Shown: piece by piece, positions 1 through 48,026 of the stretch
Numbering within the stretch: the first letter of the stretch is position 1
How the letters are laid out: each line of letters starts with the position of its first letter
Source of the DNA: Klebsiella variicola
GTDB lineage: Bacteria > Pseudomonadota > Gammaproteobacteria > Enterobacterales > Enterobacteriaceae
Direction of reading: 5' to 3'
DNA length: 64,000 nt
NCBI RefSeq assembly: GCF_000828055.2
Contig: NZ_CP010523.2
Coordinates: 4,898,001 to 4,962,000 of the forward strand
Translations under genes and position numbers: made by a program
The notes under the pieces: model-generated
What the model was told of the DNA's origin: nothing
Databases searched by the model: none
Seen by the model: the letters and a program-made list of their open reading frames with translations, nothing else

Positions 1-3000
1 CGCGTCGCCAGGCAGGTCATTTTCGGCTGTGCAATACCCTGGCGCAGCGTCTGCCCCGTCTCCTGCCGGTTAGCATGATGCAGCGCGGCGCTGCTTAGAT
101 AATGTTCCAGTCGGCTCAGGCTGAGAGCCTGTTGTGTGGCGAACTGTTCCACCGCCAGTCGCTGGGCTATGTTATAGCTATCGTTACACCAGGTACGCCA
201 ATCTTTAGCGCTGATGCAATGGGAAATCTGCGCCCAGCGTTCCTCATTGAGATTTAGGTGGCGTCCGCCCTTATCCTTCGGTTTATAGTCTTCATTAAGT
301 ATCATCAACACCTCTGCGTTGGTGACCAGCTCGCCGGCCTGGTCCAGCCACAGGGTAATGGTTTCAGGAGGCATCAGATGGTCGGCCAGTCGTTGCAGAG
401 CTGGTGTATTGACATCCGCTTCAATCAGAAAATCGTAGCGGAAAAAAATATTTTCATCGCCCATGCCTGGTGTGATGCGGATAATCGCGCTAGCAACACC
501 GCGTTCTTCAAAATCCAGCATTTGTAGGATGGCATCATGGAAAGGTTCACCCAAGCGAGCCGGGCGGATTTTACCCTGAGAGGTATCAGCCCGGTAGTAG
601 CTAAGCGGCCAAGTCATGGGCGAACTTCCGCTAGATTGGTTAAGATCAAAGCCCAGCAGGCAGTGTTTTTGTAGGCGATGTGGGCTGACTAAGGTGCCCG
701 TCCCTCTATCACCAGGGTTGAAGCGATAGCGGAATATCGATGGATCTTTCTCATCTGGAATAAAATCGAATTTCAGTACATTACCTATCAGATTACGAGC
801 GCAGCGGCGGAATTCCTCTTCATTCTCATCTATATCCGCCAGTGCATCGGCATACTCTCTGGCTTCGATGATATCGCCATCAATTTGCAGCAGGACTTCC
901 TGCATTTCGATGCGCTGCTTTTCCACCGTAAGGCGGCCATCTTCACCAGCCAGACGCGCACTGAGTTGCATCATGCTCTCTTCACCCAGCGGGTAAAGAT
1001 TGGAAATAAGCTGCTGTAATTCCTCATCAATCAAGTATTGTAGGCTTGCAATCGACTCTTCGAAGACATCGAACACTTCATTGAGAATAGTCAGCCACTG
1101 ATTTTGCAGACCCTCTGCTTCACTCACCAGCGCCATGCTGAGGATAGTAGTCGCACTCTCAGTCGCGCAGTAGCGATTCAAGCGGCCAAGACGCTGTTCC
1201 ATACGGTTAGGCGACAGCAACAAGTCGTAATGCAGCGCAATCTTGCGCCCGCCGTGCAGATTGACACCTTCTTCAGCCCGGCGATCGCACACTAAGATCT
1301 GGCATTTGCTTCCCTTGCCAAAGCGCACTTCTTTGTCGGGGTTATGGCGCTGGATTTTGCCAATAAATGGTATCATCAGGTCGGTAAATACCTGGTCGGC
1401 TACCCATGGCTGGTCACAGAACACCACAATATAAGGGAGTTCTCTGACGTTACTATCCAGAAGTTTTTCCAATACATCAATTAAGCGCTGGCGCTTGCTG
1501 TCACACTCCATTTTGCAGCGGTCTATCAGCTCAAGCAGGATCTCCTTCTCGCCATCAAACAGCGGATGCTGCAACAGCGCGAGCTGTGAATCACTATAGA
1601 GAAAGCCCTGCGCGGCATCAAGTGACTCCTGCTGTAAGCGATAGTTTGCAAGCCGGGCCAGTAGCTCCGGCGTAGCGATAGCGGCTTCAAACAGTAACTG
1701 ATAAATTGCCACCAACGTGGGGTCTTGTGGGTGCATCATTATTGCCGATTCGCGCCAGGCGATCATCATGTCGTTGCTGGCGTTCGTCGTGGCATATTTT
1801 TTTAGTGATAGGCCGGACAAGCCAGGCATCAGGACACTAATGGCGGGGTTGCTACGGCGGTTGCGTAGCAGGCGGTGGTGCAGACGGTAACGGTTACCAA
1901 TGTAGTGGCGGATTTTATTGATCAGCAGATCACGCACCTCACTCCGCAGCGGTTGCATCATATCTAAATGGGGAAGCAACTGTGAAGCCATCCCGTTTAG
2001 TACTTCATCCTCAGGAAACATCCTAGTCAACGCTTCCAGGTTCTCTTCCAGCGTCATGTTGTCGTTTTCACAGTTAAACGCGTAGAACAGTGAACCTATT
2101 TCTTCGCGCTGCTGGATACGCTGCTGAAATTTCAGTAAGCCAGTGTCAGTCAGTGGGTAATTTTTAGCATCCAGCAGATGCAGCATGGCCAGGAAGTTCT
2201 TTTCATTGCCAGTTACGGGCGTCGCTGATAGTAATAGCAATTTTTCACTTTGTTGCGCCAAGTAGTTCACACTAGCGTAGCGCTGCTCGTACTCTGCATC
2301 CCATGCCCATGCACCGACCTGATGAGCTTCGTCAATCACCAGCATATCGGGGCGGAACGACAGGGGGTCCGCTGTGCTGAAGGCCGCCATATCAATGATA
2401 TGGATCGACTTATTAAGCAGTTCCTCCAGGTGAAAACGTGCAGAAAGTTCCTGCTGCCACTGCCGGTGCAGAACTCCAGGCGCCACAATCACCACGCAGT
2501 GGGTGAGCGGATTTTCCGTGACGTGTTGACGCACGATCAGCCCAGCTTCGATGGTTTTCCCGAGGCCGACTTCATCAGCCAACAGATAGCGTTGAATAGG
2601 GTCAGATAACACCCGACGCGCGACGGCCAACTGGTAAGGTTCGAGTTCAATACTGGACGACAGCGAAGAGGTAATCCCAGCACAAGCGTTGCGTTGTTTC
2701 AGCATCTGATGCTGATAAGCTAGACGGGCATCTTGCCAGAAGGGGGTATAGGTAATGCGCTCGGCCAGAAGGGCCGCAGCATCGCTGATAGGGCGATCCC
2801 AGCGCACAAAGATATCATTTAAGCTGACGTCTTCCTGCTGCTTGTTAGGAAAATGCAAACGCACCCCTCCAGGCACGGCACCAACAACACGTGCAATCTG
2901 CCAGTGTGCTACCTCGTAGTCGTAGCGATAAACCAGACTTTCCGCGTGGAGTTCGGCTTTTTTTAGGTGTTTTATTTCGACAGTTTGCTCTATGCCTTCA

Positions 3001-3122
3001 TAATTTACGGGAGAATCGAAATACTTAATTAGAGCATCATTATTGTTAATGCGAATAAGTTTGCCGATTCCATAAGGCGAGTCAACGAGGTCGCCTGCTT
3101 CAAGGGGCATATATCCATCCAT
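1..3122 (-). CDS. dpdE: DpdE-like SNF2-family helicase (partial, runs off left edge)
   Basis: A minus-strand reading frame stays open from an ATG at 3122 (in-frame alternative ATG at 3110) to the window edge, about 1040 codons. It has superfamily 2 helicase motifs in order: LADEVGLGKT (motif I, near 2570-2595), DEAH (near 2322-2335), SATP (near 2215-2230), then a C-terminal RecA-like domain with RAEEGVNLHGG (motif V) and NRMEQRLGRLNR (motif VI, near 1180-1210). A short SH3-like N-terminus (GDLVDSPYGIGKL) precedes the helicase. With dpdA and dpdB next to it, the best match is DpdE, the SNF2-like helicase of the restriction half of the 7-deazapurine DNA modification system. SNF2 family membership is seen in the motifs; the Dpd assignment rests on context. 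The C-terminus is not in the window. No strong ribosome-binding site precedes either start. Confidence 0.75.
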   Translation of the reverse strand, partial: MDGYMPLEAGDLVDSPYGIGKLIRINNNDALIKYFDSPVNYEGIEQTVEIKHLKKAELHAESLVYRYDYEVAHWQIARVVGAVPGGVRLHFPNKQQEDVSLNDIFVRWDRPISDAAALLAERITYTPFWQDARLAYQHQMLKQRNACAGITSSLSSSIELEPYQLAVARRVLSDPIQRYLLADEVGLGKTIEAGLIVRQHVTENPLTHCVVIVAPGVLHRQWQQELSARFHLEELLNKSIHIIDMAAFSTADPLSFRPDMLVIDEAHQVGAWAWDAEYEQRYASVNYLAQQSEKLLLLSATPVTGNEKNFLAMLHLLDAKNYPLTDTGLLKFQQRIQQREEIGSLFYAFNCENDNMTLEENLEALTRMFPEDEVLNGMASQLLPHLDMMQPLRSEVRDLLINKIRHYIGNRYRLHHRLLRNRRSNPAISVLMPGLSGLSLKKYATTNASNDMMIAWRESAIMMHPQDPTLVAIYQLLFEAAIATPELLARLANYRLQQESLDAAQGFLYSDSQLALLQHPLFDGEKEILLELIDRCKMECDSKRQRLIDVLEKLLDSNVRELPYIVVFCDQPWVADQVFTDLMIPFIGKIQRHNPDKEVRFGKGSKCQILVCDRRAEEGVNLHGGRKIALHYDLLLSPNRMEQRLGRLNRYCATESATTILSMALVSEAEGLQNQWLTILNEVFDVFEESIASLQYLIDEELQQLISNLYPLGEESMMQLSARLAGEDGRLTVEKQRIEMQEVLLQIDGDIIEAREYADALADIDENEEEFRRCARNLIGNVLKFDFIPDEKDPSIFRYRFNPGDRGTGTLVSPHRLQKHCLLGFDLNQSSGSSPMTWPLSYYRADTSQGKIRPARLGEPFHDAILQMLDFEERGVASAIIRITPGMGDENIFFRYDFLIEADVNTPALQRLADHLMPPETITLWLDQAGELVTNAEVLMILNEDYKPKDKGGRHLNLNEERWAQISHCISAKDWRTWCNDSYNIAQRLAVEQFATQQALSLSRLEHYLSSAALHHANRQETGQTLRQGIAQPKMTCLAT

Positions 3123-3534
3123 AAGTTTGCTGTGCGTAACAGTGATTTTAAAAGTCTTTGATTAATGATGATTTTTTATACGTATAATATCACTGAATAC
3201 AAGGACAATGTCATACACTGCAACCCGTAAAGATGATTGTCAAGGAGGGGGATCACGGTTACTAGTCTACTATGACTTTTAGGGGGAGGTAATCCGGTGC
3301 GGCCTGTGACTTATTTACCGGCCTTCAAAACTCGTGAAACGACTAAATCTCAAAAAAACTCTTAATTTTTTATGAGTTACGAACATATATCGTAACAAGG
3401 TCAGCGTTTGATGATAAGAATGAAAGCATGGGGCTGTCTGGCGCTTGTACAGAATTTGAACTTCTGCACCATATCTGCAGCCCCACGTCGATTTTCAGCA
3501 CTCGATACTTATAATGCCAATTGGGTTGTCACCC
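3123..3534. other. Gene-free gap in the dpd cluster with inverted repeats
   Basis: About 410 bases separate dpdB from the dpdE-like gene and no convincing reading frame is present. The stretch is AT-rich. It contains an inverted repeat with 7-base arms GTTACGA/TCGTAAC at 3376-3396, and a nested hairpin at 3429-3485. A -10-like TATTAT/TATACG on the minus strand near 3180-3190 could drive the dpdE-like gene, but its -35 is poor. Confidence 0.5.
3429..3485 (-). other. Nested hairpin just downstream of dpdB
   Basis: The outer arms TGGGGCTG (3429-3436) and CAGCCCCA (3478-3485) are exact complements. The inner arms GTACAGAA (3447-3454) and TTCTGCAC (3462-3469) pair with one G-U and close a 7-base loop. 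Read on the minus strand this lies about 50 bases beyond the dpdB stop. It could be a transcript end or an mRNA-stabilising structure; no run of T follows, so a simple intrinsic terminator is unlikely. Confidence 0.4.
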
Positions 3535-4665
3535 TTATTTAATATCTGCATTGACAGTTTTCATATAGTTAGTTACCAAATAATCTGTAACCAACGATAT
3601 ATCTTTCGATAGATTCTGTACCTCGTTCCACTTACGAACGATCGGATGACCATCAATATCCGTGCCTAAGTTCCACACTCCACTACTCCATGCACAAAGC
3701 GGCTTGATACGATTTAACTCTTCTACAAAGCGGGAATAGGAAGGGATCTCGGTCCATCCTGGTTCGCCTTTGTACTCCTGATGCACTTGATCAATTTCAT
3801 CCATCAGGCTACCGAGAGCAAGAATCCCCACACCGTGTAACAAGCGAGAGTAACGAGGTTTTTTATCCCAATCGTCAGTAAACACAGTTTCTACAGCAGA
3901 CCAGAAGTTATTCAGCAACTTGACCATTTTGGCTTCATCGCCAAGTCCAGTTGCCGGGTCACGAAAGCGATACAATGCTCCCTCACGTAGGCTAGAGTCG
4001 ATCATTTTGATCATTGAGTTGTCAGCAATCACTCCGTCCGGGTTGGTCGCAGTCTTAATTCGCCCAGCCAATGGCCCCTCACCAAAGTTAAGACGCTGTG
4101 TCAGCAGTGAAGGGAATTTGCGCAGTTGCAGATCGGAAGGCAAGCGGCCATGCGTATGCGGAGCCAGTTCGTACAACAGCGTTTTAGGCAACGGTTTGGT
4201 GGAGTTCACCAGCATAAACTGTTCGCGTTGTTCTTCGGCATCATTGGCGATAAATGCCGATACCGGCATCATAAAAGAGTTGATGTCCGCTTCTCGTAAC
4301 GCAGCTGTACGTTGCTGTCCATCAACGATAAACCCAGGTTTGTCGAAGTTTACCTCTTCAGAATACGGAATAACGAGATGCCCCATATCACTGTTTTCCA
4401 GCAGCGGTTCAAAGCGTACGCGCTGATCGAAAGCGATAATGACGGGGTTGGGGATCATCGGATTCGCGCTTTCAATATAGCGCTGGATTTCCTTAATATG
4501 GCTACGTACTTCCGGACGCTGATAACCAACCAGGTTCTCATCTCCGCGTCGAATGCGTGAAATCGCAGCAATTTTGCTGATTTGTTTGCCTTCAATGGCC
4601 AAGCTGTAAAGCTGTCTCTTCTCACCCTGACGAATACGCAGGGCGGGGACACGAAACTCACTCAT
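3535..4665 (-). CDS. dpdB: DpdB, DGQHR/ParB-like nuclease-fold protein
   Basis: The product has 376 residues and carries the signature DGQQRTAAL (residues 115-123), a variant of the DGQHR motif that defines DndB/DpdB-type ParB-like proteins. A conserved segment near FMLVNSTKPLPKTLLYEL follows, as in that family. In the Dpd system, DpdB works with the transglycosylase DpdA to insert preQ0 into DNA. The gene starts only 2 bases after the dpdA stop, so the two are almost certainly co-translated, in keeping with a joint role. The length fits the family and no frameshift is seen. The Q in place of H in DGQHR is a tolerated variant as far as I know. Confidence 0.85.
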   Translation of the reverse strand: MSEFRVPALRIRQGEKRQLYSLAIEGKQISKIAAISRIRRGDENLVGYQRPEVRSHIKEIQRYIESANPMIPNPVIIAFDQRVRFEPLLENSDMGHLVIPYSEEVNFDKPGFIVDGQQRTAALREADINSFMMPVSAFIANDAEEQREQFMLVNSTKPLPKTLLYELAPHTHGRLPSDLQLRKFPSLLTQRLNFGEGPLAGRIKTATNPDGVIADNSMIKMIDSSLREGALYRFRDPATGLGDEAKMVKLLNNFWSAVETVFTDDWDKKPRYSRLLHGVGILALGSLMDEIDQVHQEYKGEPGWTEIPSYSRFVEELNRIKPLCAWSSGVWNLGTDIDGHPIVRKWNEVQNLSKDISLVTDYLVTNYMKTVNADIK

Positions 4666-4667
4666 GA

Positions 4668-5915
4668 TTAATCCTCTGAGCGTAATGACAATGTGTGCTG
4701 CAAGCGACTGTACAGCACCTGAATATTGTGGAATCCGCGACGGCGATTACGCTCGGCGCCACGGAAAATAATCACGTTAATCCCAATGGATTTGCAGATA
4801 TTGCACTGGCACTTCCGCCAAGGTTGGTCGGCAAGCGTACGTTCGTAATCGGCACGGATCTTCTCCGCTTCTTTTTCACCCGAGTGTAGACGTTCATAGG
4901 CCATTACAGCCTCCAGAACTTTTTCTAGCGACAACGCGTCTTTATCGTATTCAGCCAAGGCATGCATGGCATCTTTTTCCAGAAGACGCGCCACATCCTG
5001 GTCAATAACGCCAGATTTTATCTTACGACTGAGACTAGGGTTGGCATCGAACTGCGGCACACGCACAGCTGTATAAGCTCGTCCCTCAGGCGTATGGTAG
5101 TTATTTTTGCGATCTTTAAACGCCTGCTGAAGGGGGGTTGTTGAGTCGATACTGGTAACACCAAGACGAACGAAATCCGTAAAGCTCTCCGGACGAGCAA
5201 TACCAAGCAGATGAACCCGGGTATCACTTTTGAGAAGTGGTTTAATCTCTTCCAAGGTTTCAAGGATCTGCGCCGTTTTCAGGGGCACCATCCCCCCCAT
5301 GGTGATATTCTTATACCCCATAGCCAGCAGTGCTTCTACTGATTGTCTGTAAGATGCCTTGTTCCAACCGTGCGCAACGCCAAAGGGCGTGAAGCAACTC
5401 TTCTGCGATTTAACTAAAAAATCCTGCGCCAGAGTCAAGGTGATATCCTGGCGACGACGACATTCTGCCAGCACCTCACCTGAGAAAGATTCTCCCGGTT
5501 TTTCGTAGCCAAAAATGATATGGTCAAGTGATACCCCGTAGTTAAAGCGGGATGTTTCATAGAATTCAATAACATCTTCGACGCGATATGGAGGAACATC
5601 TTGATTTACATAAGTAAATGCACCACAGTCTCCCATTGTTTGCATCGTCTCTGGCAAACGAAAGAAATGTTTCATTCCATTCCGGAAGTACCGTAATCGT
5701 TGTGCTCGCGTATATTTACTTTCACCGCGACCTAAGCCATCTACAACCGCTTTCGAAACTAGCATTCCATCATAAGGATGGGGGAAAACCTCATGCGGAT
5801 AGAGGTCGTCACGCTGGCGAACACGATGTTCATTGCGCGTTTCTCGAAGGAAGTCGAAACTAGGATCGATAAAATCCTGACTATCCGGAAAAAAATACTT
5901 TAGCTTCGACAACAC
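4668..5915 (-). CDS. dpdA: DpdA, DNA-directed tRNA-guanine transglycosylase homologue
   Basis: The product has 415 residues. The C-terminal zinc-site pattern CQCNIC followed by RRGFHN (about residues 369-397) and the TIM-barrel motifs GVSLDHIIFG, GGMVPLK and LLGIARPESF mark the TGT superfamily. DpdA enzymes exchange guanine for preQ0 in DNA instead of tRNA. The start is GTG at 5915, chosen because AGGAG lies at the right distance upstream. Housekeeping Tgt is quite different in sequence and is not normally next to a DGQHR protein, which supports DpdA. It is flanked by the DpdC-like gene upstream (67 bases) and dpdB downstream (2 bases), so dpdC-dpdA-dpdB probably form one operon. Confidence 0.88.
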   Translation of the reverse strand: MLSKLKYFFPDSQDFIDPSFDFLRETRNEHRVRQRDDLYPHEVFPHPYDGMLVSKAVVDGLGRGESKYTRAQRLRYFRNGMKHFFRLPETMQTMGDCGAFTYVNQDVPPYRVEDVIEFYETSRFNYGVSLDHIIFGYEKPGESFSGEVLAECRRRQDITLTLAQDFLVKSQKSCFTPFGVAHGWNKASYRQSVEALLAMGYKNITMGGMVPLKTAQILETLEEIKPLLKSDTRVHLLGIARPESFTDFVRLGVTSIDSTTPLQQAFKDRKNNYHTPEGRAYTAVRVPQFDANPSLSRKIKSGVIDQDVARLLEKDAMHALAEYDKDALSLEKVLEAVMAYERLHSGEKEAEKIRADYERTLADQPWRKCQCNICKSIGINVIIFRGAERNRRRGFHNIQVLYSRLQHTLSLRSED

Positions 5916-5982
5916 TGATCTCCTGTGACGCCTTTTACTGTCAAAAAACGTGAGATTTTAGCATAGTCTTATTGCTGCGACA

Positions 5983-6939
5983 TTATCGATTAGTCAACAA
6001 AACTGCCTGGTACAGCGTTCGAAATCGCTTCTCTTCAAAACTATTGCCTTGATCACGAAATGACCGAAGTGCCCGGGAAGCACTTCCATCTGGATTTGCA
6101 TGTATATACGAAGAAATCCAAATAGTTACCTCTTCTGGTCTCCTGCGCACCCCGCGAACAGTATGCTTTTTAGGCAGTACTGAAAATGTTGAACGAAGAC
6201 GCTCAGCAAGCAACCCCAAATGGCCATCATCCATACTCATAAACTGTTCAATTACATACTGAGCTATTTTAATATTTAACATAAGCATATTACTGTTAAA
6301 AAACTCAGCGATTGATTTATTGCTTACCAATAGTTTTTTTTTCAAAGAAAATTTAGCCTGCGAAGAAGATATAATGATTAACTGTCTATCGACATCCTTT
6401 AAGTAAGAGATGCCTTTCATTAAATCCATGTTTATTGCGTTTATATAATCAGGTGATGCACAGATAATAAAATACTCATCGGACTTATCCATCATTAAGT
6501 CAGATAAGGATACAGGATGAGATTTTTTTAATGGGGATGCTTCATTTAATTTTCCCCACCATTCTTGATGAAAGGATTTCTTTCCATATTTATCGGAAAA
6601 AAGAGGTATGGAATCTTTATGTCCTGTAGCAAATGTCGCTTGATAAGGAACTATAGCATCCCCATGTTTCAACAGTCCAAAACCAGCTGAAAGAACCCAT
6701 AATTCAATGGGTTGAGCGTCATATATCGACATTGCCGTTGACCAGTGCCCCCCCTTATATAACTTTTCTACAGGAACAACTAACTTCGTCGATAGAGCCG
6801 AATTTACGGCCTCACCCCAGGCATGAATCAAACCTTTCGGCGTTTTATATTTTTCAGAAAAGGTGGCAAGATTCAGTACTGAATGACCGTTATTATGCTT
6901 GCTATTAGTGCAACTTGTAATCAGATTTAGTCGGCTCAC
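5983..6939 (-). CDS. dpdC: DpdC-like protein (converts dPreQ0 in DNA to ADG, by context)
   Basis: The product has 318 residues. The N-terminus has LITSCTNSKH (residues 5-14) and the middle LWVLSAGFGLLKHGDAIVPY, a pair of motifs reminiscent of YaaA/DUF6884-type proteins. In known Dpd clusters a third modification gene, dpdC, is needed to turn inserted preQ0 into 2'-deoxy-7-amido-7-deazaguanosine. Its place directly upstream of dpdA on the same strand makes this the obvious candidate. The start is GTG at 6939 with GAGGG upstream. Function is inferred from context and motif resemblance, not from a confident full-length match. Confidence 0.62.
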   Translation of the reverse strand: MSRLNLITSCTNSKHNNGHSVLNLATFSEKYKTPKGLIHAWGEAVNSALSTKLVVPVEKLYKGGHWSTAMSIYDAQPIELWVLSAGFGLLKHGDAIVPYQATFATGHKDSIPLFSDKYGKKSFHQEWWGKLNEASPLKKSHPVSLSDLMMDKSDEYFIICASPDYINAINMDLMKGISYLKDVDRQLIIISSSQAKFSLKKKLLVSNKSIAEFFNSNMLMLNIKIAQYVIEQFMSMDDGHLGLLAERLRSTFSVLPKKHTVRGVRRRPEEVTIWISSYIHANPDGSASRALRSFRDQGNSFEEKRFRTLYQAVLLTNR

Positions 6940-7041
6940 AATATTACCCTCAAGAATCCCCCCGCAAAGCTACCGTATGTAGGGGTTCGTTGCAAGCCTA
7001 ATTAGGTAAAAAACTTTTATCGTAACCTATCACGAATTCAA

Positions 7042-7275
7042 TTAATGTGGAGAATACTCATAATAAACATCTTCATCCCTATCACACGGGGCATTACGTT
7101 TAATAACTCCCTGGGATTCTAAATATTCGCAAAATTCTTGACAATCTTTTAACAAACATCCACCTGCTTTGGCCTTTTTATTAGAAATCAAAGCCCTGGC
7201 AAGAGTATCATAACTAAACCCCCCCGTTGAGTGGGTGATCATATCCATAGCAGCATGCGTATCAAATGACATCAT
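7042..7275 (-). CDS. Small hypothetical protein, 77 residues, at the leuX end of the island
   Basis: I do not recognise this protein. It is 77 residues long, has no membrane segment, and contains two cysteines in GGCLLKDCQEFCEYLE (three with the last C) followed by an acidic C-terminus DRDEDVYYEYSP. GGGAGAG lies about 8-10 bases before the ATG at 7275 (a second ATG is at 7272), and a good promoter with a 17-base spacer lies at 7309-7337, so translation is likely. It precedes the dpdC-like gene by about 100 bases on the same strand and could be a small regulator or accessory protein of the island. Confidence 0.6.
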   Translation of the reverse strand: MMSFDTHAAMDMITHSTGGFSYDTLARALISNKKAKAGGCLLKDCQEFCEYLESQGVIKRNAPCDRDEDVYYEYSPH

Positions 7276-7308
7276 CGATGACTCTCCCTCGGTTTTATAT
7301 CCAATGAA

Positions 7309-7337
7309 GGTATAATTAAGTCATCATAGTTTTGCAA
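7309..7337 (-). promoter_or_regulatory. Promoter of the 77-residue gene
   Basis: On the minus strand TTGCAA (7332-7337) and TATACC (7309-7314) are separated by 17 bases and lie about 35 bases before the start codon. It may also serve the dpdC-dpdA-dpdB genes downstream. Confidence 0.55.
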
Positions 7338-7436
7338 GAACAAGGCACCAAATACTACTTTATACAACTTTCGCTTCGATCCCATCCAAACTACACGGCT
7401 ATCAGGTTTTCAGAAGTTGCATAGAAATCAAGACAC

Positions 7437-7459
7437 AAAAAAAGCCGCCCTTGAGCGAC
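7437..7459 (-). terminator. Intrinsic terminator of leuX
   Basis: Read on the minus strand, GTCGC-TCAAG-GGCGGC folds into a short hairpin and is followed by seven T. It lies 14 bases past the tRNA 3' end, which fits leuX termination before the island genes. Confidence 0.7.
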
Positions 7460-7473
7460 TTGATTGTATCTTT

Positions 7474-7558
7474 TGGTGCCGAAGGCCGGACTCGAACCGG
7501 CACGTATTTCTACGGTTGATTTTGAATCAACTGCGTCTACCGATTTCGCCACTTCGGC
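7474..7558 (-). tRNA. leuX: tRNA-Leu, anticodon CAA
   Basis: An 85-base class II tRNA with acceptor arms GCCGAAG/CTTCGGC, discriminator A, encoded CCA, the GGTTCGAGTCC T-arm and a long variable arm. The anticodon loop TTCAAAA gives CAA, reading UUG. It matches enterobacterial leuX, a frequent integration site for islands. Its 3' end faces the dpd genes, as expected if the island entered at the tRNA 3' end, and the tRNA sequence is intact. ahr to the right matches the E. coli neighbourhood of leuX. Confidence 0.97.
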
Positions 7559-7935: not shown

Positions 7936-8149
7936 TAGCCAATGCCTTTTTGTTATTCACCCACTCCGCAGTCAAATATTAATTTCATCAATATTTTTAT
8001 AACTTTACATTAATGAAAAGTTTTCTTTTTGCCGTTTATTCCAGGATTTTCCTCAGGCGTGAAGGGTTCCGGTAAACACTATTTTTACTAGTCGCTGTAC
8101 GAGTCTTGATGGACATATTCACTCGATGAATTAACTCAGGAGAATACTT

Positions 8150-8830
8150 GTGACGACGTTAAAACCTTTGCTGGCCCGCAACCGCAGCTGGGCGCTGCAG
8201 AAGTGTCAGCATGACCCGGACTATTTCGAAAAATGGGTCGACGGGCAGCGGCCCCACTCGCTGTGGATCGGCTGCTCCGACAGCCGCGTTCCCGCCGAGG
8301 TGCTCACCGGCAGCCAGCCCGGCGAGCTCTTTGTCCACCGCAATATCGCCAACATGCTCGACCCCGCCGACGACAACGTCATGAGCGTCCTGCAGTATGC
8401 CCTCCACTACCTTGAGGTGGAGCGGGTGGTGCTCTGCGGCCACTACGGCTGCGGCGGTGTGCAGGCGGCGCTCTCTCTGCCCACCCTGCCGCTGGCGCAG
8501 GAGTCCTCGGCGCTGGCTCGCCGCATCGGCCAGCTGCGCCACACCCTGCATCACGAAATTGCGCAGATCGCCGATGGGTGTGGTGTTGAGGCCTCCCCCG
8601 GCGCCAGTGCCAGCGCCAGCACCGACGCGGAGTGCTCTCGCCGTGCCCTTGATGCCCTGGTGGAAGCCAACGTTCGCGCCCAGTTCGCCCGTCTGCTGGA
8701 GAGTGAACCGGTGCAGACGGTGCTCGCCAGCGGGCGGCCGCTCAGCCTGCACGGCTGCGTCTACGATCTGGCTTCCGGCCATTTAACCACCCTCGTCGAA
8801 CACCTCTCACCGCAGGAGCACGCCCCATGA
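8150..8830 (+). CDS. Beta-class carbonic anhydrase
   Basis: The 226-residue product interconverts CO2 and bicarbonate. The zinc ligands are visible: C42, D44 (in CSDSR), H98 and C101 (in HYGCGG), with R46 as the usual partner of D44. The start is GTG at 8150 with AGGAG 9 bases upstream. The stop overlaps the start of the SulP transporter gene by 4 bases (ATGA), so the pair is translationally coupled. Carbonic anhydrase with SulP is a recurrent pairing thought to serve bicarbonate (or a similar anion) uptake or pH control. It is distinct from the housekeeping can gene by position; I cannot tell which subclade it belongs to. Confidence 0.92.
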   Translation: MTTLKPLLARNRSWALQKCQHDPDYFEKWVDGQRPHSLWIGCSDSRVPAEVLTGSQPGELFVHRNIANMLDPADDNVMSVLQYALHYLEVERVVLCGHYGCGGVQAALSLPTLPLAQESSALARRIGQLRHTLHHEIAQIADGCGVEASPGASASASTDAECSRRALDALVEANVRAQFARLLESEPVQTVLASGRPLSLHGCVYDLASGHLTTLVEHLSPQEHAP

Positions 8831-10296
8831 ACACGCTTCGTCAGGACTCTCTCGCCGGCATCGTCGTCTTCCTTGTCGCCCTGCCGCTGTGCCTCGGCAT
8901 CGCCCAGGCCAGCGGCTTACCGCCCTTCGTCGGCCTGCTGACCGGCATCATCGGCGGCCTGGTCGTCACCGCCCTCAGCCCCTCCCGCTTCGCCGTCAGC
9001 GGCCCCGCCGCCGGACTGGTCACCATCGTCGTCGCCGCCATTGAATCCCTGGGTTCCTTCTCCGTCTTCCTGATGGCGCTGGTGCTGGCCGGCGTGCTGC
9101 AGCTGCTGTTCGGCATCCTGCGGGCCGGGCGCTTTATCTCGCTGGTTCCCGCCAGCGTCATCAAAGGCATGCTGGCGGCGATCGGCATCCTGCTGATTAT
9201 GCAGCAGATCCCCGTCGCGCTCGGCACGGCGGAAGAGACCGGGCTTGCCGAAGTGGTTCAGGGCAATGCCGCTTTCTCCGTCACTGCGATTGCCGTCGCC
9301 GCGGGCGGCCTGCTGGTGCTCTGGCTGTGGGGCTCGCCGCTTATCCGCCGGGTGAAGAGCCTGCGCTGGATCCCCGGGCCGCTGATCGCCGTCCTGCTCG
9401 GCTGCGTGACCACCCTGCTGCTGACCCATTTTGCGCCGCAGCAGCTGGCCGCCCTGCCGCGTATTACCCTGCCGGCGTTCGGCAGCCTCGGCGATCTGCT
9501 GGGCGAGCTGGAGTCCCCCGCATGGAGCGCCTGGCGTAATCCGTCGGTGTGGGTGGTGGCGGTGACCCTGGCGCTGGTCGCCAGCCTCGAAACCCTGCTC
9601 AGCCAGGAGGCGCTGAAAAAGCTGCGCCCGCAAAATCCGCCCCCTTCGCCGAACCGCGAAATGGTCGCCCAGGGCGTCGGCAATCTGCTCTCCGGCGTGC
9701 TGGGGGCGATGCCGATCACCGCGGTGATCGTCCGCAGCTCGGTGAACGTCAGCAATGGCGCGCAGAGCAAGCTGTCGATCTTTATCCATGGCGTCCTGCT
9801 GTTAATCTGCGGCCTGTGGTTCAGCGGCCTGCTGACCTTAATCCCGCTCGCCAGCCTCGCCGCCGTGCTGCTGTATACCGGCTATAAGCTGGCGACGCCG
9901 CGGCTGTTCATCGAGCAGTTCCGCCAGGGGGCGGCGCAGTACGTTCCGTTCCTCGCCACCATCAGCGGGATTATTGCCTTCGGCATGCTGGCGGGGATTG
10001 GGATTGGTCTTGCCACCCAGATGGCTTTCAGCCTCTGGCGCAGCCATCGCCACTCGCTGCAGCTGGCGCGCTACGATGACCACTACGTGCTGCGCATCCA
10101 GCAGAATCTGACCTTTATGCACAATCCGCATCTGCTGGCCCTGCTGGCGAAAATTCCGGAAAAGAGCGTGGTGATCGTCGAGCACGACAGCGTCGGCTAC
10201 CTCGACCCGGACGTGCAGGCGGTGCTGGATGATTTTGCCGAGAACGCCCCGCAGCGCGGCATCCAGCTTAATCAGTGGCCGCTGGCCAGCCGCTGA
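8827..10296 (+). CDS. SulP-family inorganic anion transporter
   Basis: The 489-residue inner-membrane protein shows the SulP N-terminal pattern (DSLAGIVVFLVALPLCLGIA, residues 7-26), many hydrophobic segments to about residue 400 and a short C-terminal cytoplasmic part of about 80 residues with weak STAS-like character (VVIVEHDSVGYLDPDVQAVL). SulP proteins move sulfate, bicarbonate or dicarboxylates. The direct coupling to a carbonic anhydrase gene favours bicarbonate. No STAS-carbonic anhydrase fusion is present; the two functions are kept as adjacent genes. Confidence 0.88.
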   Translation: MNTLRQDSLAGIVVFLVALPLCLGIAQASGLPPFVGLLTGIIGGLVVTALSPSRFAVSGPAAGLVTIVVAAIESLGSFSVFLMALVLAGVLQLLFGILRAGRFISLVPASVIKGMLAAIGILLIMQQIPVALGTAEETGLAEVVQGNAAFSVTAIAVAAGGLLVLWLWGSPLIRRVKSLRWIPGPLIAVLLGCVTTLLLTHFAPQQLAALPRITLPAFGSLGDLLGELESPAWSAWRNPSVWVVAVTLALVASLETLLSQEALKKLRPQNPPPSPNREMVAQGVGNLLSGVLGAMPITAVIVRSSVNVSNGAQSKLSIFIHGVLLLICGLWFSGLLTLIPLASLAAVLLYTGYKLATPRLFIEQFRQGAAQYVPFLATISGIIAFGMLAGIGIGLATQMAFSLWRSHRHSLQLARYDDHYVLRIQQNLTFMHNPHLLALLAKIPEKSVVIVEHDSVGYLDPDVQAVLDDFAENAPQRGIQLNQWPLASR

Positions 10297-10407
10297 CCTT
10301 AACGGGCGGCTGGTCCGCCCGCTGCGCGACCCCTCCGATTGCCAAGCGCCGGGGAATACCATGCTCTACACTTTCTGGGTTATCACGCCAACCCCAAGGA
10401 AATGAAC

Positions 10408-11427
10408 ATGAGCATCATTAAAAGCTACGCCGCCAAAGAAGCGGGCGCCGATCTGTCGCTGTGGGAATACGATGCCGGCGAGCTGCAGCCGGAAGATGTC
10501 GAAGTTGAAGTGGAATACTGCGGGATCTGCCATTCGGACCTGTCGATGATCGACAACGAATGGGGGATGTCGAGCTACCCGCTGGTGGCCGGTCACGAGG
10601 TGATTGGCCGGGTGGCGGCGCTGGGCAGCGCGGCGCAGGATAAAGGGCTGAAGATTGGCCAGAAGGTCGGCATCGGCTGGACGGCGCGCAGCTGTGGCCA
10701 TTGCGACGCCTGCATCAGCGGCAATCAGATCAACTGCCTGGAAGGCTCGGTGCCGACCATTCTTAACCGCGGCGGCTTCGCCAATAAGTTGCGCGCTGAC
10801 TGGCAGTGGGTGATCCCCCTGCCGGAGAGCATCGATCTGGCGTCCGCCGGCCCGATGCTGTGCGGCGGCATCACCGTCTTTAAACCGCTGCTGACCCACC
10901 ACGTCACCGCCACCAGCCGCGTCGGGGTGATCGGCATCGGCGGCCTCGGCCATATCGCCATTAAGCTGCTGCGGGCGATGGGCGCGGAAGTGACCGCCTT
11001 CAGCTCCAACCCGGCGAAAGAGCAGGAAGTGCTGGCGATGGGCGCCGATCGCGTGGTGAACAGCCGCGATCCTGAAGCCTTAAAAGCGCTGGCCGGTCAG
11101 TTTGACTTGATCATCAACACCGTGGCGGTGGATCTCGACTGGCAGCCGTACTTCGAAGCCCTGGCTTACGGCGGCAACTTCCATACCGTCGGCGCGGTGA
11201 TGAAGCCGTTCCCGGTGCCGGCCTTTACCCTTATCGGCGGCGACCGCAGCATCTCCGGCTCGGCGACCGGTAATCCGTCCGAACTGCGTAAGCTGATGAA
11301 ATTCGCCGGGCGCAGCAAAGTGGCGCCAACCACCGAGCTGTTCCCGATGTCGCAGATTAACGAAGCGCTGAAGCACGTTCGCGAAGGCAAAGCCCGCTAC
11401 CGCGCGGTGCTGAAAGCCGACTTCTGA
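10408..11427 (+). CDS. ahr: NADPH-dependent aldehyde reductase / alcohol dehydrogenase Ahr
   Basis: The 339-residue zinc-dependent medium-chain dehydrogenase is close to E. coli Ahr (YjgB) along its length. The catalytic zinc site starts at CGICHSD and GHE; the structural zinc cysteines lie around [25 protein letters not shown] is the NADP-binding glycine motif. Ahr reduces a broad range of aldehydes. The ATG at 10408 is chosen because AAGGA lies 7 bases upstream and the N-terminus [13 protein letters not shown] matches the family; earlier in-frame ATGs add an unlike extension. Its position next to leuX is conserved with E. coli. Confidence 0.95.
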
Positions 11428-11438
11428 TGGTTCTCTCC

Positions 11439-11467
11439 CGCCGGGCGGCCCGCTCGCCCGGCGTTTT
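11439..11467 (+). terminator. Intrinsic terminator after ahr
   Basis: CGCCGGGC (11439-11446) pairs with GCCCGGCG (11456-11463) and is followed by TTTT. Confidence 0.7.
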
Positions 11468-11485
11468 CCCCGTCGCTTCATCAAA

Positions 11486-11514
11486 CCGTCATCTCCCCGC
11501 CATGCCTCTGTAGT
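11486..11514 (+). promoter_or_regulatory. Three degenerate 11-base direct repeats (possible weak Pho box)
   Basis: CCGTCAT, CCGCCAT and CTGTAGT start at 11486, 11497 and 11508, exactly 11 bases apart, resembling the CTGTCAT repeats of a Pho box with 6, 5 and 5 of 7 matches. The AT-rich linkers typical of Pho boxes are missing. It lies 44 bases before the gpdQ transporter operon, where phosphate control would make sense. Confidence 0.25.
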
Positions 11515-11557
11515 CATTGCTTCCCACAATCCGGGCTTCGATAAATGGCTGAACGAG

Positions 11558-12442
11558 ATGCGCGTCACCATGAGAAAGACCTGGCTTCCCTGGCTGATCC
11601 TGTCGCCTTCCCTGCTGTTTTTACTGCTGTTTACCTGGTTCCCGCTGGGGCGTTCGGTGTATGACAGCCTGTTTGATACCCGCATGGCCAGCGACGGCGC
11701 GCAGTACGTCGGCCTGGATAACTTCGCCCGCCTGTTTGCCGATAACGTCTTCTGGCAGTCGCTGGGCAATAACCTGCTCTATATCCTGCTGACGGTAGTG
11801 CCCGGGGTGACCCTCGCCCTGCTGCTGGCGGTCGCCCTGAGCGAGAACCATCGCGTCAACCGCTGGCTGCGCACCGCCTTCTTCTTCCCGATGATTATCC
11901 CGATGGTCAGCGCCGCCGCGCTGTGGCTGTTTATCTTTATGCCCGGCCTCGGCCTGCTCGACCACTATCTGGCGAAGCTGTTCGGGCCGATGAACAACAA
12001 CTGGCTGGGGCGCAGCAACAGCGCGCTGCTGGCCCTGGCGCTGATCGGCGTGTGGAAGTTCGCCGGCTACTACATGCTGTTTTTCCTCGCCGGGCTGCAG
12101 AGCATTCCGGCCTCGACGCGGGAAGCGGCGCTGATGGAGGGGGCTACCCGCACGCAGGTCTTTTTTAAGGTCACGTTACCGCTGCTGCGCCCGACGCTGA
12201 GCTTTGTGATCACCACCGCGCTGATCTACTCCATCACCCAGATCGACCACGTGGCGGTGATGACCCGCGGCGGGCCGGACAACGCCACCACCGTGCTGCT
12301 CTATTACATCCAGAATCTCGCCTGGGATACCCACGACCTCGGCAAAGCCTCCGCCGCCACCTTCCTGACCCTGGCCGGGCTGTTCGCCTTCTCGCTGATT
12401 AACCTGAAACTGCTGGAGAAAGGAGCCCACTATGAGCGCTGA
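11558..12442 (+). CDS. ABC sugar/glycerophosphodiester transporter permease (UgpA/MalF type)
   Basis: The 294-residue protein has about six membrane segments and the EAA loop EAALMEGATRTQVFFKVTLP (about residues 192-211) that docks with the ATPase. The start may be 11558 or the ATG at 11570; neither has a clear ribosome-binding site. It is the first gene of an operon permease-permease-gpdQ-ATPase-binding protein and overlaps the next gene by 11 bases. CUT1 permeases of this form carry oligosaccharides or glycerol-3-phosphate and its diesters. The presence of gpdQ inside the operon points to glycerophosphodiesters. Confidence 0.87.
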   Translation: MRVTMRKTWLPWLILSPSLLFLLLFTWFPLGRSVYDSLFDTRMASDGAQYVGLDNFARLFADNVFWQSLGNNLLYILLTVVPGVTLALLLAVALSENHRVNRWLRTAFFFPMIIPMVSAAALWLFIFMPGLGLLDHYLAKLFGPMNNNWLGRSNSALLALALIGVWKFAGYYMLFFLAGLQSIPASTREAALMEGATRTQVFFKVTLPLLRPTLSFVITTALIYSITQIDHVAVMTRGGPDNATTVLLYYIQNLAWDTHDLGKASAATFLTLAGLFAFSLINLKLLEKGAHYER

Positions 12443-13319
12443 CATCTCGCCGCTGCTGGTCCGCACGCCCGCCGCCGCCCGTCCGCTGTGGCTGCGCCTG
12501 CGCCGCTCGTCGCCCTTTACGCTGACGGTATTAATGTGCTGCCTGGCGCTGCTGTGGATCAGCCCGTTTATCTGGATGCTGGCCACCTCGTTCAGCGCTA
12601 CCACCTTCGGGGAAGATATGGCCTCGCTGCTGCCCCGCCTGCCGCTGACCCTCGATAACTTCCGCGACGCCTGGAACAGCGCCGACTGGCTGAGCCTGTA
12701 CGCCAACACCCTTATCTTCACCTTCGGCACCTTCTTCGTGCAGCTGTTGACCATCACCACCGCCGGGTACGTCTTCGCCTGCCACGAGTTTCGCGGCAAG
12801 CAGACGCTGTTTCTCCTGTTCCTGGTGCAGCTGATGATCATGCCGGTGGTGATGATGGTGCCGAACATGCTGACCCTGAAAACCTTCGGCCTGCTCAACA
12901 CCCTCACCGGGGTGATGATGCCCTACTTCACCTCGGCGTTCGGCGTGTTCCTGATGCGTCAGGCGTTCCTCGCCATCCCGAAAGAGCTGGAAGAGGCGGC
13001 GCTGATGGAAGGCTGCCGCTGGTGGCAGGTGCTGTTCCGCATGCTGCTGCCGATGTCCTGGCCGTCGGTGCTGGCCTTCGCCACCGTCAGCATTACCTAC
13101 CACTGGAACGAGTACCTGTGGCCGCTGATGATGCTCAACGATCCCGATAAGCAGGTGCTGACCGTCGGGCTGGTCTCCTTCGCCATGGGCGCCGAATCCG
13201 GCGGCCAGTGGGGCACCATCGGCGCCGGGACGCTGATGGTCTGCCTGCCGCTGATGCTGGCGTTCATCCTTTTTCAGAAACAGTTCCTGCGGAGCTTCGG
13301 CTTCTCCGGGATCAAATAA
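12432..13319 (+). CDS. ABC transporter permease (UgpE/MalG type)
   Basis: The 295-residue second permease has an N-terminal membrane segment near residue 35 and a further five, with the EAA loop EEAALMEGCRWWQVLFRMLLP. It pairs with the upstream permease to form the channel of a CUT1 importer. It starts inside the end of the upstream gene (11-base overlap) with GGAG in place before the ATG. Confidence 0.88.
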   Translation: MSADISPLLVRTPAAARPLWLRLRRSSPFTLTVLMCCLALLWISPFIWMLATSFSATTFGEDMASLLPRLPLTLDNFRDAWNSADWLSLYANTLIFTFGTFFVQLLTITTAGYVFACHEFRGKQTLFLLFLVQLMIMPVVMMVPNMLTLKTFGLLNTLTGVMMPYFTSAFGVFLMRQAFLAIPKELEEAALMEGCRWWQVLFRMLLPMSWPSVLAFATVSITYHWNEYLWPLMMLNDPDKQVLTVGLVSFAMGAESGGQWGTIGAGTLMVCLPLMLAFILFQKQFLRSFGFSGIK

Positions 13320-13329
13320 GGAGTGATTC

Positions 13330-14154
13330 ATGCTGTTAGCGCACATTTCCGATACCCATTTCCGCAGCCGCGGCGAGAAGCTGTACGGCTTTATCGACGT
13401 CAACGCCGCCAACGCCGACGTGGTCTCCCAGCTTAACGCGCTGCGCGAACGCCCGGACGCGGTGGTAGTGAGCGGGGATATCGTCAACTGCGGCCGCCCG
13501 GAGGAGTATCAGGTGGCCCGCCAGATCCTCGGCAGCCTGAACTATCCGCTGTATCTGATCCCCGGCAACCACGACGACAAAGCCCATTTTCTGGAGCATC
13601 TTCACCCGCTGTGCCCGCAGCAGGGCAACGATCCGCAAAATATGCGCTATGCGGTGGATGATTTCGCCACCCGCCTGCTGTTTATCGACTCCAGTCGCGC
13701 CGGCACCTCAAAGGGCTGGCTGACCGACGAGACCATCGGCTGGCTGGAAGCCCAGCTGTTCGAGGGCGGCGACAAACCGGCAACGATCTTTATGCACCAC
13801 CCGCCGCTGCCGCTGGGCAATGCGCAGATGGACCCGATCGCCTGCGAAAACGGCCACCGTCTGCTGGCGCTGGTGGAGCGTTTCCCGTCGCTGACGCGCA
13901 TCTTCTGCGGCCATAACCACAGCCTGACCATGACCCAGTATCGCCAGGCGCTGATCTCCACTATCCCTGGCACCGTCCATCAGGTGCCGTACTGCCACGA
14001 AGACACCCGGCCCTATTACGACCTCTCCCCGGCCTCGTGCCTGATGCACCGTCAGGTCGGCGATCAGTGGGTGAGCTACCAGCACTCGCTGGCCCACTAC
14101 GCCGGGCCGTGGCTGTACGACGAAAACATCAGTTGCCCAACGGAAGAGCGCTAA
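13330..14154 (+). CDS. gpdQ: Glycerophosphodiesterase GpdQ
   Basis: The 274-residue binuclear metallophosphoesterase splits glycerophosphodiesters (such as glycerophosphoethanolamine) to glycerol-3-phosphate and an alcohol, and also acts on many other mono-, di- and triesters. All ligands known from the K. aerogenes enzyme are present at the same positions: D8, H10, D50, N80, H156, H195 and H197. From memory the sequence agrees with that enzyme almost throughout, and the length is identical. It has no signal peptide, so it acts in the cytoplasm on imported diesters. It lies between the permease and ATPase genes, 10 and 5 bases from its neighbours, so transport and hydrolysis are coupled in one transcript. 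Confidence 0.96.
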
Positions 14155-14159
14155 CCGCC

Positions 14160-15230
14160 ATGCTCAGTCTGCAAAACATCAGTAAGCGTTTCGACGGCAA
14201 ACCGGCGCTCAGCGCCCTGTCGCTGGATATTCACGAAGGCGAATTCGTGGTGCTGGTCGGCCCGTCGGGCTGCGGGAAAAGCACCCTGCTGCGCCTGCTC
14301 GCCGGCCTGGAGCCGGTCAGCGAAGGCCAAATCTGGCTGCATGATGAGAACATCACCGCCACCACGCCGCGCGAGCGCAACTTCGCGATGATCTTCCAGA
14401 ACTATGCCCTGTTTCCGCATCTGTCGGTGCGCGACAACATCACCTTCGGCATGAAGGTGCGCAAGGAAGAGAAAAGCAGCTGGCAGCCGCGGGTGGACAA
14501 AGTGGCGCAGATGCTGCAGCTGGAGGCGCTGCTCGACCGCAAACCGGCGAAGCTCTCCGGCGGCCAGCGCCAGAGGGTGGCGATGGCCCGGGCGATCGTG
14601 CGCAATCCGCGGCTGTTCCTGATGGACGAGCCGCTCTCCAACCTCGACGCCCGCCTGCGCAGCGAAGTGCGCGACAGCATTATGGCCCTCCACCAGCAGC
14701 TGAAAACCAGCACGATCTATGTGACCCACGATCAGACCGAGGCGATGTCGATGGCCGACCGCATCGTGGTGATGAACGGCGGCCACGTACAGCAGGTCGG
14801 GCGCCCGGAGTATCTGTACGCCAACCCGGCCAACCTGTTCGTCGCCGGGTTTATCGGTTCGCCGGCGATGAACCTCCTGTCGCTGCCCTGCGCCAACGGT
14901 GAAGTACTGTTGGGAGAACAGCGCCATCCGCTGCCGCCGCGCCACCGGGATCAGACCCGCGTCTGGCTGGGCATTCGCCCGGAACATATTACCGACCGCG
15001 TGGAGGAGGGCCATCTGCGCCTGCCGGCCACCGTTCTGCAACGAGAACTGATGGGGGCCGACTACCTGCTCCACGTCAGCACCCCGATCGGCACCCTGCG
15101 CTTTAGCCGCCGCCACCGCGGCACGGTGCCGGAGAAAGGCGAGTCGCTACTGGTCGGCTTCTCGCCTGCCGATGTGCATCTTTTTCATGCTGAGACCCAG
15201 CATAATTTAGCGCCGGTACATCAGGCGTAA
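14160..15230 (+). CDS. ABC transporter ATPase (UgpC/MalK type)
   Basis: The 356-residue ATPase has Walker A GPSGCGKST (residues 34-42), signature LSGGQ, Walker B LFLMDEP and switch His in VTHDQ, followed by a C-terminal OB-type regulatory domain of the MalK/UgpC kind (about residues 240-356). The ATG at 14160 is chosen since MLSLQNISKRF is the usual N-terminus; an earlier in-frame start lies inside gpdQ. It drives the importer formed by the two upstream permeases. Confidence 0.92.
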   Translation: MLSLQNISKRFDGKPALSALSLDIHEGEFVVLVGPSGCGKSTLLRLLAGLEPVSEGQIWLHDENITATTPRERNFAMIFQNYALFPHLSVRDNITFGMKVRKEEKSSWQPRVDKVAQMLQLEALLDRKPAKLSGGQRQRVAMARAIVRNPRLFLMDEPLSNLDARLRSEVRDSIMALHQQLKTSTIYVTHDQTEAMSMADRIVVMNGGHVQQVGRPEYLYANPANLFVAGFIGSPAMNLLSLPCANGEVLLGEQRHPLPPRHRDQTRVWLGIRPEHITDRVEEGHLRLPATVLQRELMGADYLLHVSTPIGTLRFSRRHRGTVPEKGESLLVGFSPADVHLFHAETQHNLAPVHQA

Positions 15231-15240
15231 TTGTTGCAGT

Positions 15241-15322
15241 CAGTTTGGACGCGGACAGCGCGGAAGAACCGGAGCGTACACGTAGTACGTGAGGATTCTG
15301 AGCACTGCCCAGGGCCAAACTG
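15241..15322. repeat. Palindromic enterobacterial intergenic repeat (boxC/ERIC-like)
   Basis: The 82-base element is bounded by CAGTTTGG and CCAAACTG and has an inner near-palindrome GTACACGTAGTACGTG. It lies between the ATPase and the binding-protein gene within one operon, so it will be transcribed and could affect relative expression of the periplasmic component. Confidence 0.6.
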
Positions 15323-15369
15323 GCAAATAAAATAGCCTGTGGACAGGTGCTTACTGATGGAGACAGATC

Positions 15370-33545: not shown

Positions 33546-35446
<1,901 letters not shown>

Positions 35447-47759: not shown

Positions 47760-48026
47760 AAACAGTCCCTCCGCGCTCGCGCGAGCGAACGCAGCGTCGC
47801 CAACAGGCGTAGCAAAGCCTACCTGTCAGGCATGTAATTTTTATGGCAGGGACATCAAGGACATCACTGCTTTACGCTTTCCGGTAAAGCAGTGTTAAAC
47901 AGGCTTACCGGAAAGAAAGGTTGCTCCATCGAGGATGAGGAGTGGGATCGGGGTCCATAAATTCTCCGGTAAGTGAATATAAACGGCGCGGATTATAGCG
48001 CGCTCGTTGAGACATGTGTGGCATTT
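47760..48026 (-). promoter_or_regulatory. mgtA 5' leader (Mg2+/proline-sensing)
   Basis: From the predicted start point near 48026 to the mgtA ATG is about 265 bases, very near the known E. coli/Salmonella leader length. The leader encodes MgtL (47905-47958). It includes two complementary segments, CTTTACCGGAAAGCGTAAAG-type arms around 47870-47890, and further GC-rich hairpins at 47775-47820. By family knowledge it ends transcription early by Rho at high Mg2+ and reads through at low Mg2+ or low proline. Confidence 0.8.
47905..47958 (-). CDS. mgtL: Leader peptide MgtL
   Basis: A 17-residue peptide MDPDPTPHPRWSNLSFR starts at ATG 47958 after GGAGAATTT. It keeps the E. coli MgtL length, acidic second residue, and prolines at 3, 5, 7 and 9, the feature that makes translation sensitive to proline and Mg2+ levels. 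The basic middle part of E. coli MgtL is replaced here by WSNLS. Confidence 0.93.
   Translation of the reverse strand: MDPDPTPHPRWSNLSFR

Follow-up and report, generated by a model that had tools for sequence, protein, structure and literature searches.

A complete Dpd 7-deazaguanine DNA modification-restriction island at leuX of Klebsiella variicola, with a small conserved gene, orf77, beside dpdC

A stretch of 64,000 nucleotides from Klebsiella variicola (bases 4898001-4962000 of the 5,521,203-base contig NZ_CP010523.2; this whole stretch is called the window here) was analyzed together with the part of the genome adjoining it on the left. Judged from its gene content, the cluster that ends at the tRNA gene leuX near the left end of the window forms a complete Dpd 7-deazaguanine modification-restriction island; both its family and the hotspot that it occupies are known from publications. 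Islands of this family, with dpdA-C for synthesis of the modification, dpdD-K as restriction parts, frequently a queD gene, a variable gene content and leuX as an insertion locus, have been described before (PMC11888242; PMC12707154; all papers named here are cited from the excerpts available). As a Dpd island the cluster is ordinary. Its added value lies in a conserved and usually unannotated small gene, here called orf77, and in restriction halves that appear as modules on a constant marking half. Taken as a whole, the data are best explained, and we hold this with high confidence, by a complete Dpd island composed of a marking unit and a restriction unit of the type called R1 below, with Orf77 as its putative regulator, which is probably no longer self-mobile.

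A sequence-only reading of the window had named a minus-strand series of dpdC, dpdA, dpdB and dpdE ending at leuX, and each of these genes was borne out by curated profiles. The product of dpdE (1..3122, with 46 bases more left of the window), an SNF2-type helicase encoded by the leading gene of the restriction operon, matched NF041062 with 997.1 bits (cut-off 500), that of dpdB (3535..4665), a DGQHR-domain protein acting with DpdA, matched NCBIfam NF041060 with 470.1 bits (cut-off 300) and that of dpdA (4668..5915), a DNA-guanine transglycosylase, matched NCBIfam NF041059 with 580.2 bits (cut-off 200). DpdC (5983..6939) was identified by its PADLOC model with 395.7 bits over residues 1-316 of 318. 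Also on the minus strand follow orf77 (7042..7275), a small conserved open reading frame (ORF) of 77 amino acids, and leuX, a tRNA-Leu(caa) gene (7474..7558; ARAGORN and the Rfam tRNA model), the 3′ end of which forms the island border and attachment site. The remainder of the island had been predicted to lie left of the window, and dpdF-K, dpdD, queD, a copy of the leuX 3′ end and a truncated integrase gene are indeed all present there, within genome positions 4881541-4897949. On the minus strand these comprise dpdF (4895382-4897949; 869.5 bits), dpdG (4894490-4895398; 335.4 bits), dpdH (4891428-4894490; 897.6 bits), dpdJ (4886102-4890631; 1821.9 bits), dpdK (4885563-4886105; 208.3 bits) and dpdD (4883299-4885566; 594.9 bits), all over their cut-offs, as well as dpdI (4890646-4891431), which remained with 91.0 bits under the NCBIfam cut-off of 150. 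The island queD (4882850-4883248) lies on the plus strand.

Each of the eleven dpd genes is matched by a family profile: dpdA, B, D, E, F, G, H, J and K, nine in number, score above the NCBIfam cut-off, dpdC is matched via PADLOC and dpdI below the cut-off. The reading frames of dpdD-K and queD are all open, and the profile matches of dpdD-K span most of each protein. Expected motifs were found as GLGKT/DEAH in DpdE, GTGKT/DEAH in DpdF, GTGTGKT/DEVH in DpdJ, a Walker A motif in DpdH, DGQQR in DpdB and HTKGVLGD (HxK, phospholipase D, PLD) in DpdK. The dpd genes have a G+C content of 39-52% per 1000 bases, compared to 61-68% over window positions 8001-15500. What counts against a fully assigned set is that DpdI gave no PADLOC match at 1e-10 in addition to its low NCBIfam score, and that DpdC gave no NCBIfam match. 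For DpdC, the Pfam match to DUF6884 was under the cut-off and no solved relative was found by sequence at E <= 0.01; it is 46-50% identical to its counterparts in eight Enterobacterales loci and 35% to that of Tolumonas. In RefSeq, dpdC is called a hypothetical protein in the Escherichia coli records L016, L081 and L082 (our locus numbers), dpdI likewise in L016 and L081, and the gene symbol of DpdB is printed as dbpB in E. coli records such as these three.

Whether the island is a defence system or only modifies DNA had been made dependent on its restriction and preQ0 synthesis genes. Synthesis of preQ0 is complete in this genome, with folE, queE, queC and two queD genes, one chromosomal and one on the island. 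Since the full set of dpdD-K and preQ0 genes is present, the cluster qualifies as a complete Dpd island.

The DpdA protein is, as judged from sequence comparison, a DNA enzyme distinct from the tRNA-guanine transglycosylase Tgt. It matches the DNA-guanine transglycosylase structure PDB 7UI4, a protein of Salmonella Montevideo (PMC12137116), with 906 bits over residues 2-415. The DpdA model score of 580.2 bits compares with 22-29 bits for Tgt models, and with 25.2 bits against a cut-off of 306.75 for TIGR00430 the protein falls outside the Tgt family. Residues D96, D257, C369, C371, C374 and H396 are invariant in all 17 DpdA sequences compared, with D96 and D257 aligning with D102 and D277 of the Tgt encoded in the same genome. 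A DpdA tree keeps this Tgt apart as well; however, as Tgt is represented there by only one sequence, on a very long branch, the bit scores rather than the tree carry this point. Few forks among close relatives are supported in the tree, and it was not used to argue for exchange. A clustering of DpdA with tRNA Tgt, which would have spoken against a Dpd system, was not observed. A phage-type dpdA is unsupported too, as the gene lies within a full dpdA-K cluster and has the said match to 7UI4.

Following the chemistry of DpdA, DpdB and DpdC set out in the literature (PMC12839542), the island would act as follows. The housekeeping pathway of FolE, QueD, QueE and QueC, together with the extra island QueD, would supply preQ0, which DpdA with DpdB would exchange for guanine in DNA; DpdC would then hydrolyse dPreQ0 to the amide dADG, by which the cell's own DNA would be marked. 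Unmarked DNA would presumably be attacked by DpdE, F, G, H, I, J, K and D jointly. The likeliest nuclease among these may be the phospholipase-D-like DpdK, fed by the helicases DpdE, F and J. In the literature, DpdJ is assigned to the YprA family of helicases and linked with a PLD nuclease (PMC12458937).

Between dpdC and leuX, no integrase gene and no second leuX copy had been seen at first reading, and none was found here; the gap is occupied by orf77. A homolog of this gene adjoins dpdC in eight of the nine other loci first compared, the exception being Tolumonas, and in 13 of 13 close relatives compared, whether these are located at leuX, at selC (Serratia sp. H1w) or on a plasmid (pPOL9A), and also in E. 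coli 746, in which the integrase is a fragment. In most of the records examined the gene is unannotated. Among 5426 E. coli genomes, orf77 was found in 159, a number identical to that of the genomes bearing dpdA (159/5426); this is a comparison of counts, for which all 20 listed orf77 genomes and all 30 listed dpdA genomes were matched by reading among the 159 accessions of the module lists described below. Across the order, dpdA (counted at E <= 1e-60) was detected in 6 and orf77 in two of the 394 genomes sampled, both of the latter carrying dpdA, and orf77 was found in none of the 388 genomes without dpdA; the dpdA and orf77 samples were treated as one set of 394, since their listed entries agree. 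No relatives were detected in 50,697 phage records, and a scan of viral contigs yielded 105 pattern matches with no relative among them. The ratio of non-synonymous to synonymous substitution rates (dN/dS) of orf77 was 0.00-0.29 in the 32 of 55 pairs with computable dS.

The AlphaFold2 model of Orf77 is a winged helix (pLDDT 76). With respect to known families, the window protein gave no match at 1e-3 in Pfam, NCBIfam or PADLOC and no Pfam match even at E <= 1, and the use of eight members gave single-member weak hits only (E 0.059 and 0.17 in Pfam, 0.05 and 0.06 in PHROGs), so that assignment to a known family was rejected. Assignment to the Fur family was rejected as well: the modeled protein would have the winged-helix DNA-binding domain of that family, but it lacks the C-terminal metal-binding dimerisation domain and ends after the winged helix at 77 amino acids. 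The C proteins of restriction-modification systems are small proteins of the lambda-repressor type with a helix-turn-helix. Orf77 was not accepted as one of these, as it is modeled as a winged helix and has no Pfam match at the level given above; it may nevertheless work like a C protein despite its other fold.

Signals between the genes suggest three transcription units, namely orf77, dpdCAB and dpdE-D. In ten relatives, orf77 is followed by a hairpin in which 5 of the 12 pairs have changed on both sides; one pair is broken in two sequences and another gapped in one. A promoter-like pair before dpdC is kept in 11 of 11 intergenic sequences, the window included. In the window, the candidate dpdC promoter TTGCAA-17-TAGCTT is located at 6967..6995 on the minus strand (TTGCAA at 6995-6990, TAGCTT at 6972-6967), in a place between orf77 and dpdC that is conserved. 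The first two T and the last A of the first box as well as TA.CTT of the second are invariant in the 11 aligned intergenic regions. The gap of about 415 bp between dpdB and dpdE contains a TTGACA at 3243-3238, which is also present in locus L010. As orf77 is set apart from dpdC by the hairpin and the promoter-like pair, it looks separately transcribed, and for such a separate small unit a regulator would be the natural reading. On the basis of the structural model, Orf77 is probably a regulator of the dpd genes, one that would act on their transcription in such a way that marking runs ahead of restriction. Several observations weigh against this assignment or its generality. The hairpin is not evident behind orf77 in the window itself, no operator common to the three dpd promoters was found in a reading by eye only, and the Orf77 model, of moderate confidence at its pLDDT, gave no Foldseek match at E <= 0.001. 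Furthermore, orf77 was undetectable in four of the six genomes of the order with dpdA and in Tolumonas, which makes it no general Dpd component. In addition, the conserved dpdC promoter was missed by a consensus promoter scan (14 hits, with 9.0 expected from shuffled sequence).

Two other roles have to be considered for Orf77. It could be a DNA-binding subunit of the marking machine, for instance one steering DpdC, instead of a transcription regulator; we regard such a subunit as unlikely, although it fares better than any other alternative. Over 12 loci, divergence of orf77 tracks that of dpdC (r = 0.970) more closely than that of dpdA (0.848) or dpdB (0.861), and both orf77 and dpdC are about 50% diverged in the window island, compared to about 10% for dpdA and dpdB. 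Nevertheless, when the window is left out, the values become 0.954 for dpdC, 0.871 for dpdA and 0.938 for dpdB, so that the contrast shrinks and rests largely on the window. Linkage alone can make neighbours co-diverge, and the observed co-divergence is explicable by shared linkage or by joint function. The covarying hairpin in ten relatives and the conserved promoter-like pair point to separate transcription, which fits a regulator better, and dpdA-C is described as a synthesis operon without orf77 in the excerpt of PMC11888242. Alternatively, Orf77 might be an excisionase-like helper of the leuX integrase that travels with dpd by proximity only. The winged-helix fold is also used by some excisionases, Orf77 is small and predicted to have this fold, and its gene lies between the integrase gene and dpdC in L008, L009, L011, L014 and L016. 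However, orf77 stays beside dpdC without an adjacent integrase match in the window, L012, L013, pPOL9A and E. coli CFSAN061772 and with an integrase fragment only in E. coli 746, and at selC it accompanies a different integrase (42% identical). It was likewise not found in the 388 order genomes without dpdA, in the phage records or among the viral-contig matches. An excisionase is thus quite improbable, and a regulator of the dpd genes is still the preferred reading.

Comparison with related islands suggests that orf77-dpdC-dpdA-dpdB form one inherited marking unit and the restriction genes an exchangeable second unit, with the joint just after dpdB. DpdA and DpdB are 86-100% identical among 14 Enterobacterales loci and those of Tolumonas are 65-69% identical to them. 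In contrast, the restriction genes fall into three groups: R1 (the window, L016 and L010) and R2 (L012, L014, L082 and L084), both co-directional, and R3 (L008, L009, L011, L013, L079, L081 and L083), which runs in the opposite direction. DpdJ identity amounts to 37-49% between the groups and 72-100% within them; dpdJ was available for 12 loci, and L010 and L012 were placed by dpdE-G, with L012 being a loose R2 member (49-57% to the other R2 loci; dpdE 55-56%, dpdG 49-53%). Locus counts overstate independence, as L083 is nearly the same as L081, the marking cassette of L079 closely resembles that of L016, and genome G097 holds the same stretch as Pantoea ananatis L014 (1 kb piece matched). Megablast searches with a dpdJ of each type detected R1 in 54, R2 in 47 and R3 in 58 E. 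coli genomes, which are counts of genomes and not of events; their sum of 159 equals the number of dpdA-bearing genomes among the 5426, and no accession was noticed in two of the three lists. The laboratory strain E. coli ATCC 8739 is one of the genomes with dpdA and an R3 module.

The three modules could instead be old divergent lineages of the whole island. In favor of this, the dpdJ genes of R2 and R3 share 46-49% identity with one another, and each shares only 37-39% with that of R1. Nonetheless, between E. coli islands of R1, R2 and R3, dpdC is 91-99% and dpdA and dpdB are 96-98% identical, in contrast to the divergence of dpdJ, and R3 is reversed. Moreover, between the R2 islands of 14EC017 and 2273-PO3 identity is 91-93% over dpdJ-K-D (only part of dpdD) and drops to 46-66% over dpdE-I, indicating exchange inside modules, and Tolumonas (L015) combines R1-like dpdE-G genes, 72-86% identical to R1 loci yet in the opposite direction, with a dpdA of 68-69% identity. 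Along with the mosaic structure of the window island described below, these observations make old whole-island lineages very improbable. As a tentative model, to which we give slightly less than an even chance, enterobacterial Dpd would be a plug-in immune system: a fixed joint after dpdB would let the constant cassette orf77-dpdC-dpdA-dpdB combine with any one of three or more diverged restriction modules, with sub-blocks being swapped. Since one constant cassette occurs with several modules, all modules would have to read the same self-mark; they would differ in their target or in the evasion of phage inhibitors, and Orf77 would be the controller that times marking versus restriction.

Two further arrangements were observed among the loci. 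L079 is the Enterobacter cloacae IncY plasmid pPOL9A (NZ_CP086409.1), on which an R3-type Dpd cluster with orf77 lies by IS26 and IS5-family transposases; the plasmid is a possible route for Dpd between chromosomes. Two different DpdA/DpdB pairs occur in one genome in G144:C9 (L073 and L074) and in G131:C26 (L071 and L072). In G144, a single restriction module has on one side a dpdA-dpdB pair with 51-57% identity to the window and on the other a dpdC-A-B set with 23-35%, an arrangement that possibly represents two marks with one reader.

The window island is itself a mosaic at the nucleotide level. Compared to the island of E. coli C7 per 500 bases, identity is 95-99% from about genome position 4895500 to window position 3540, covering dpdF, dpdE (97-99% when taken alone) and the gap before dpdB, while it is 77-85% in dpdB and dpdA, 64-88% from dpdG to dpdD and 53-61% in dpdC and orf77. 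The position of this highly similar block amid flanks of 53-88% indicates a recent exchange with an E. coli-type island. A 4.6 kb part of the block was matched by 54 of the 5426 E. coli genomes, all at 95-99%. The strong divergence of orf77 and dpdC noted above holds toward all other loci compared.

A direct repeat of the leuX 3′ end, which had been proposed as a check on the borders, is present at the far end of the island as a 14-base exact copy (genome 4882309-4882322), 23,172 bp from its counterpart in leuX; by eye, the tRNA end is conserved there at about 20 of 21 bases, one base being missing. Read in the direction of the tRNA, this far copy continues into the leader that follows leuX and precedes the integrase gene in Cedecea (L009) and Enterobacter (L011). 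Past the leader lies an ORF of 199 amino acids that matches the 414-amino-acid E. coli island integrase in residues 1-174 only (56.5% identity). Neither this truncation nor the lack of an integrase beside leuX for the dpd unit had been foreseen. A tblastn search with the E. coli island integrase gave significant hits only to the remnant beyond the far border, and none beside leuX; the dpd genes of Candidatus Pantoea varia (L013) likewise lie at leuX without an integrase match. When the 20 kb left stretch was searched for repeats in general, the matches listed included only short or weakly alike pairs. The simplest history would be two tandem leuX elements, the dpd unit having entered by integrase-type insertion so that it now separates leuX from an older element with an integrase that has become truncated. 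As the integrase of this neighbouring element is truncated, the island is probably no longer self-mobile. Although the truncated integrase makes decay elsewhere conceivable, an island that only marks, with a decayed or inactive restriction half, is most improbable and was dismissed, dpdD-K being complete, open, matched by profiles over most of their length and equipped with their motifs. Within the genus, the leuX part of the query was matched in 20 of 20 genomes (own included) and dpdA in this genome only (1/20).

Between the far leuX copy and queD lies a truncated fosA-like ORF of 97 amino acids (genome 4882443-4882736), which matches positions 48-138 of the 140-position fosA7 profile. Left of the island (genome approximately 4876795-4881311) are ORFs of 37-41% G+C and one of 56%, with, by eye, one Hcp-like and one DUF2778-like product. 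Elsewhere in the window, a Magnesium-II riboswitch (47858-47973) and the Ysr276 sRNA (34493-34687), both on the minus strand, were found above the Rfam cut-off.

Little is understood of the restriction half of Dpd; according to the excerpt of a review (PMC12707154), restriction activity tied to the mark has not been further explored. Three diverged restriction modules on one near-invariant cassette within one species offer a natural experiment for telling restriction proteins that recognize the mark from those that confront the phage. Likewise, the conserved and mostly unannotated orf77 provides a way into the question of how such an island can enter a cell without turning against DNA of that cell which is still unmarked. 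Neither orf77 nor the three-module partition was mentioned in the excerpts of the Dpd literature searched, which does not prove their absence from print.

The Dpd island of Salmonella enterica serovar Montevideo (Thiaville 2016, Yuan 2018 and Gedara 2023, via PMC11888242 and PMC12839542) also carries dpdA-C synthesis and dpdD-K restriction genes and is the source of the DpdA structure matched by the window protein, and leuX insertion, as in the window island, is named for Salmonella enterica (PMC11888242). The window island differs by the lack of an integrase at leuX and by dpdC and orf77 being only about half identical to those of close relatives; the Salmonella cluster is likened by description and not gene by gene. 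In E. coli, the defence hotspot 37 at leuX contains a leuX-anchored Dpd cluster at a frequency of 2% (EcoSal Plus 2025, PMC12707154). The excerpt of that account describes system replacement, but neither three restriction modules on one cassette nor orf77. A further close comparison is provided by the E. coli C7 island (NZ_CP010240.1), in which the order and orientation of the dpd genes are identical to those of the window island and dpdE-F share 95-99% nucleotide identity with it, whereas a 414-amino-acid integrase gene stands beside leuX, other genes lie beyond queD, and the amino-acid identity to the window proteins is 47% for DpdC and 52% for Orf77.

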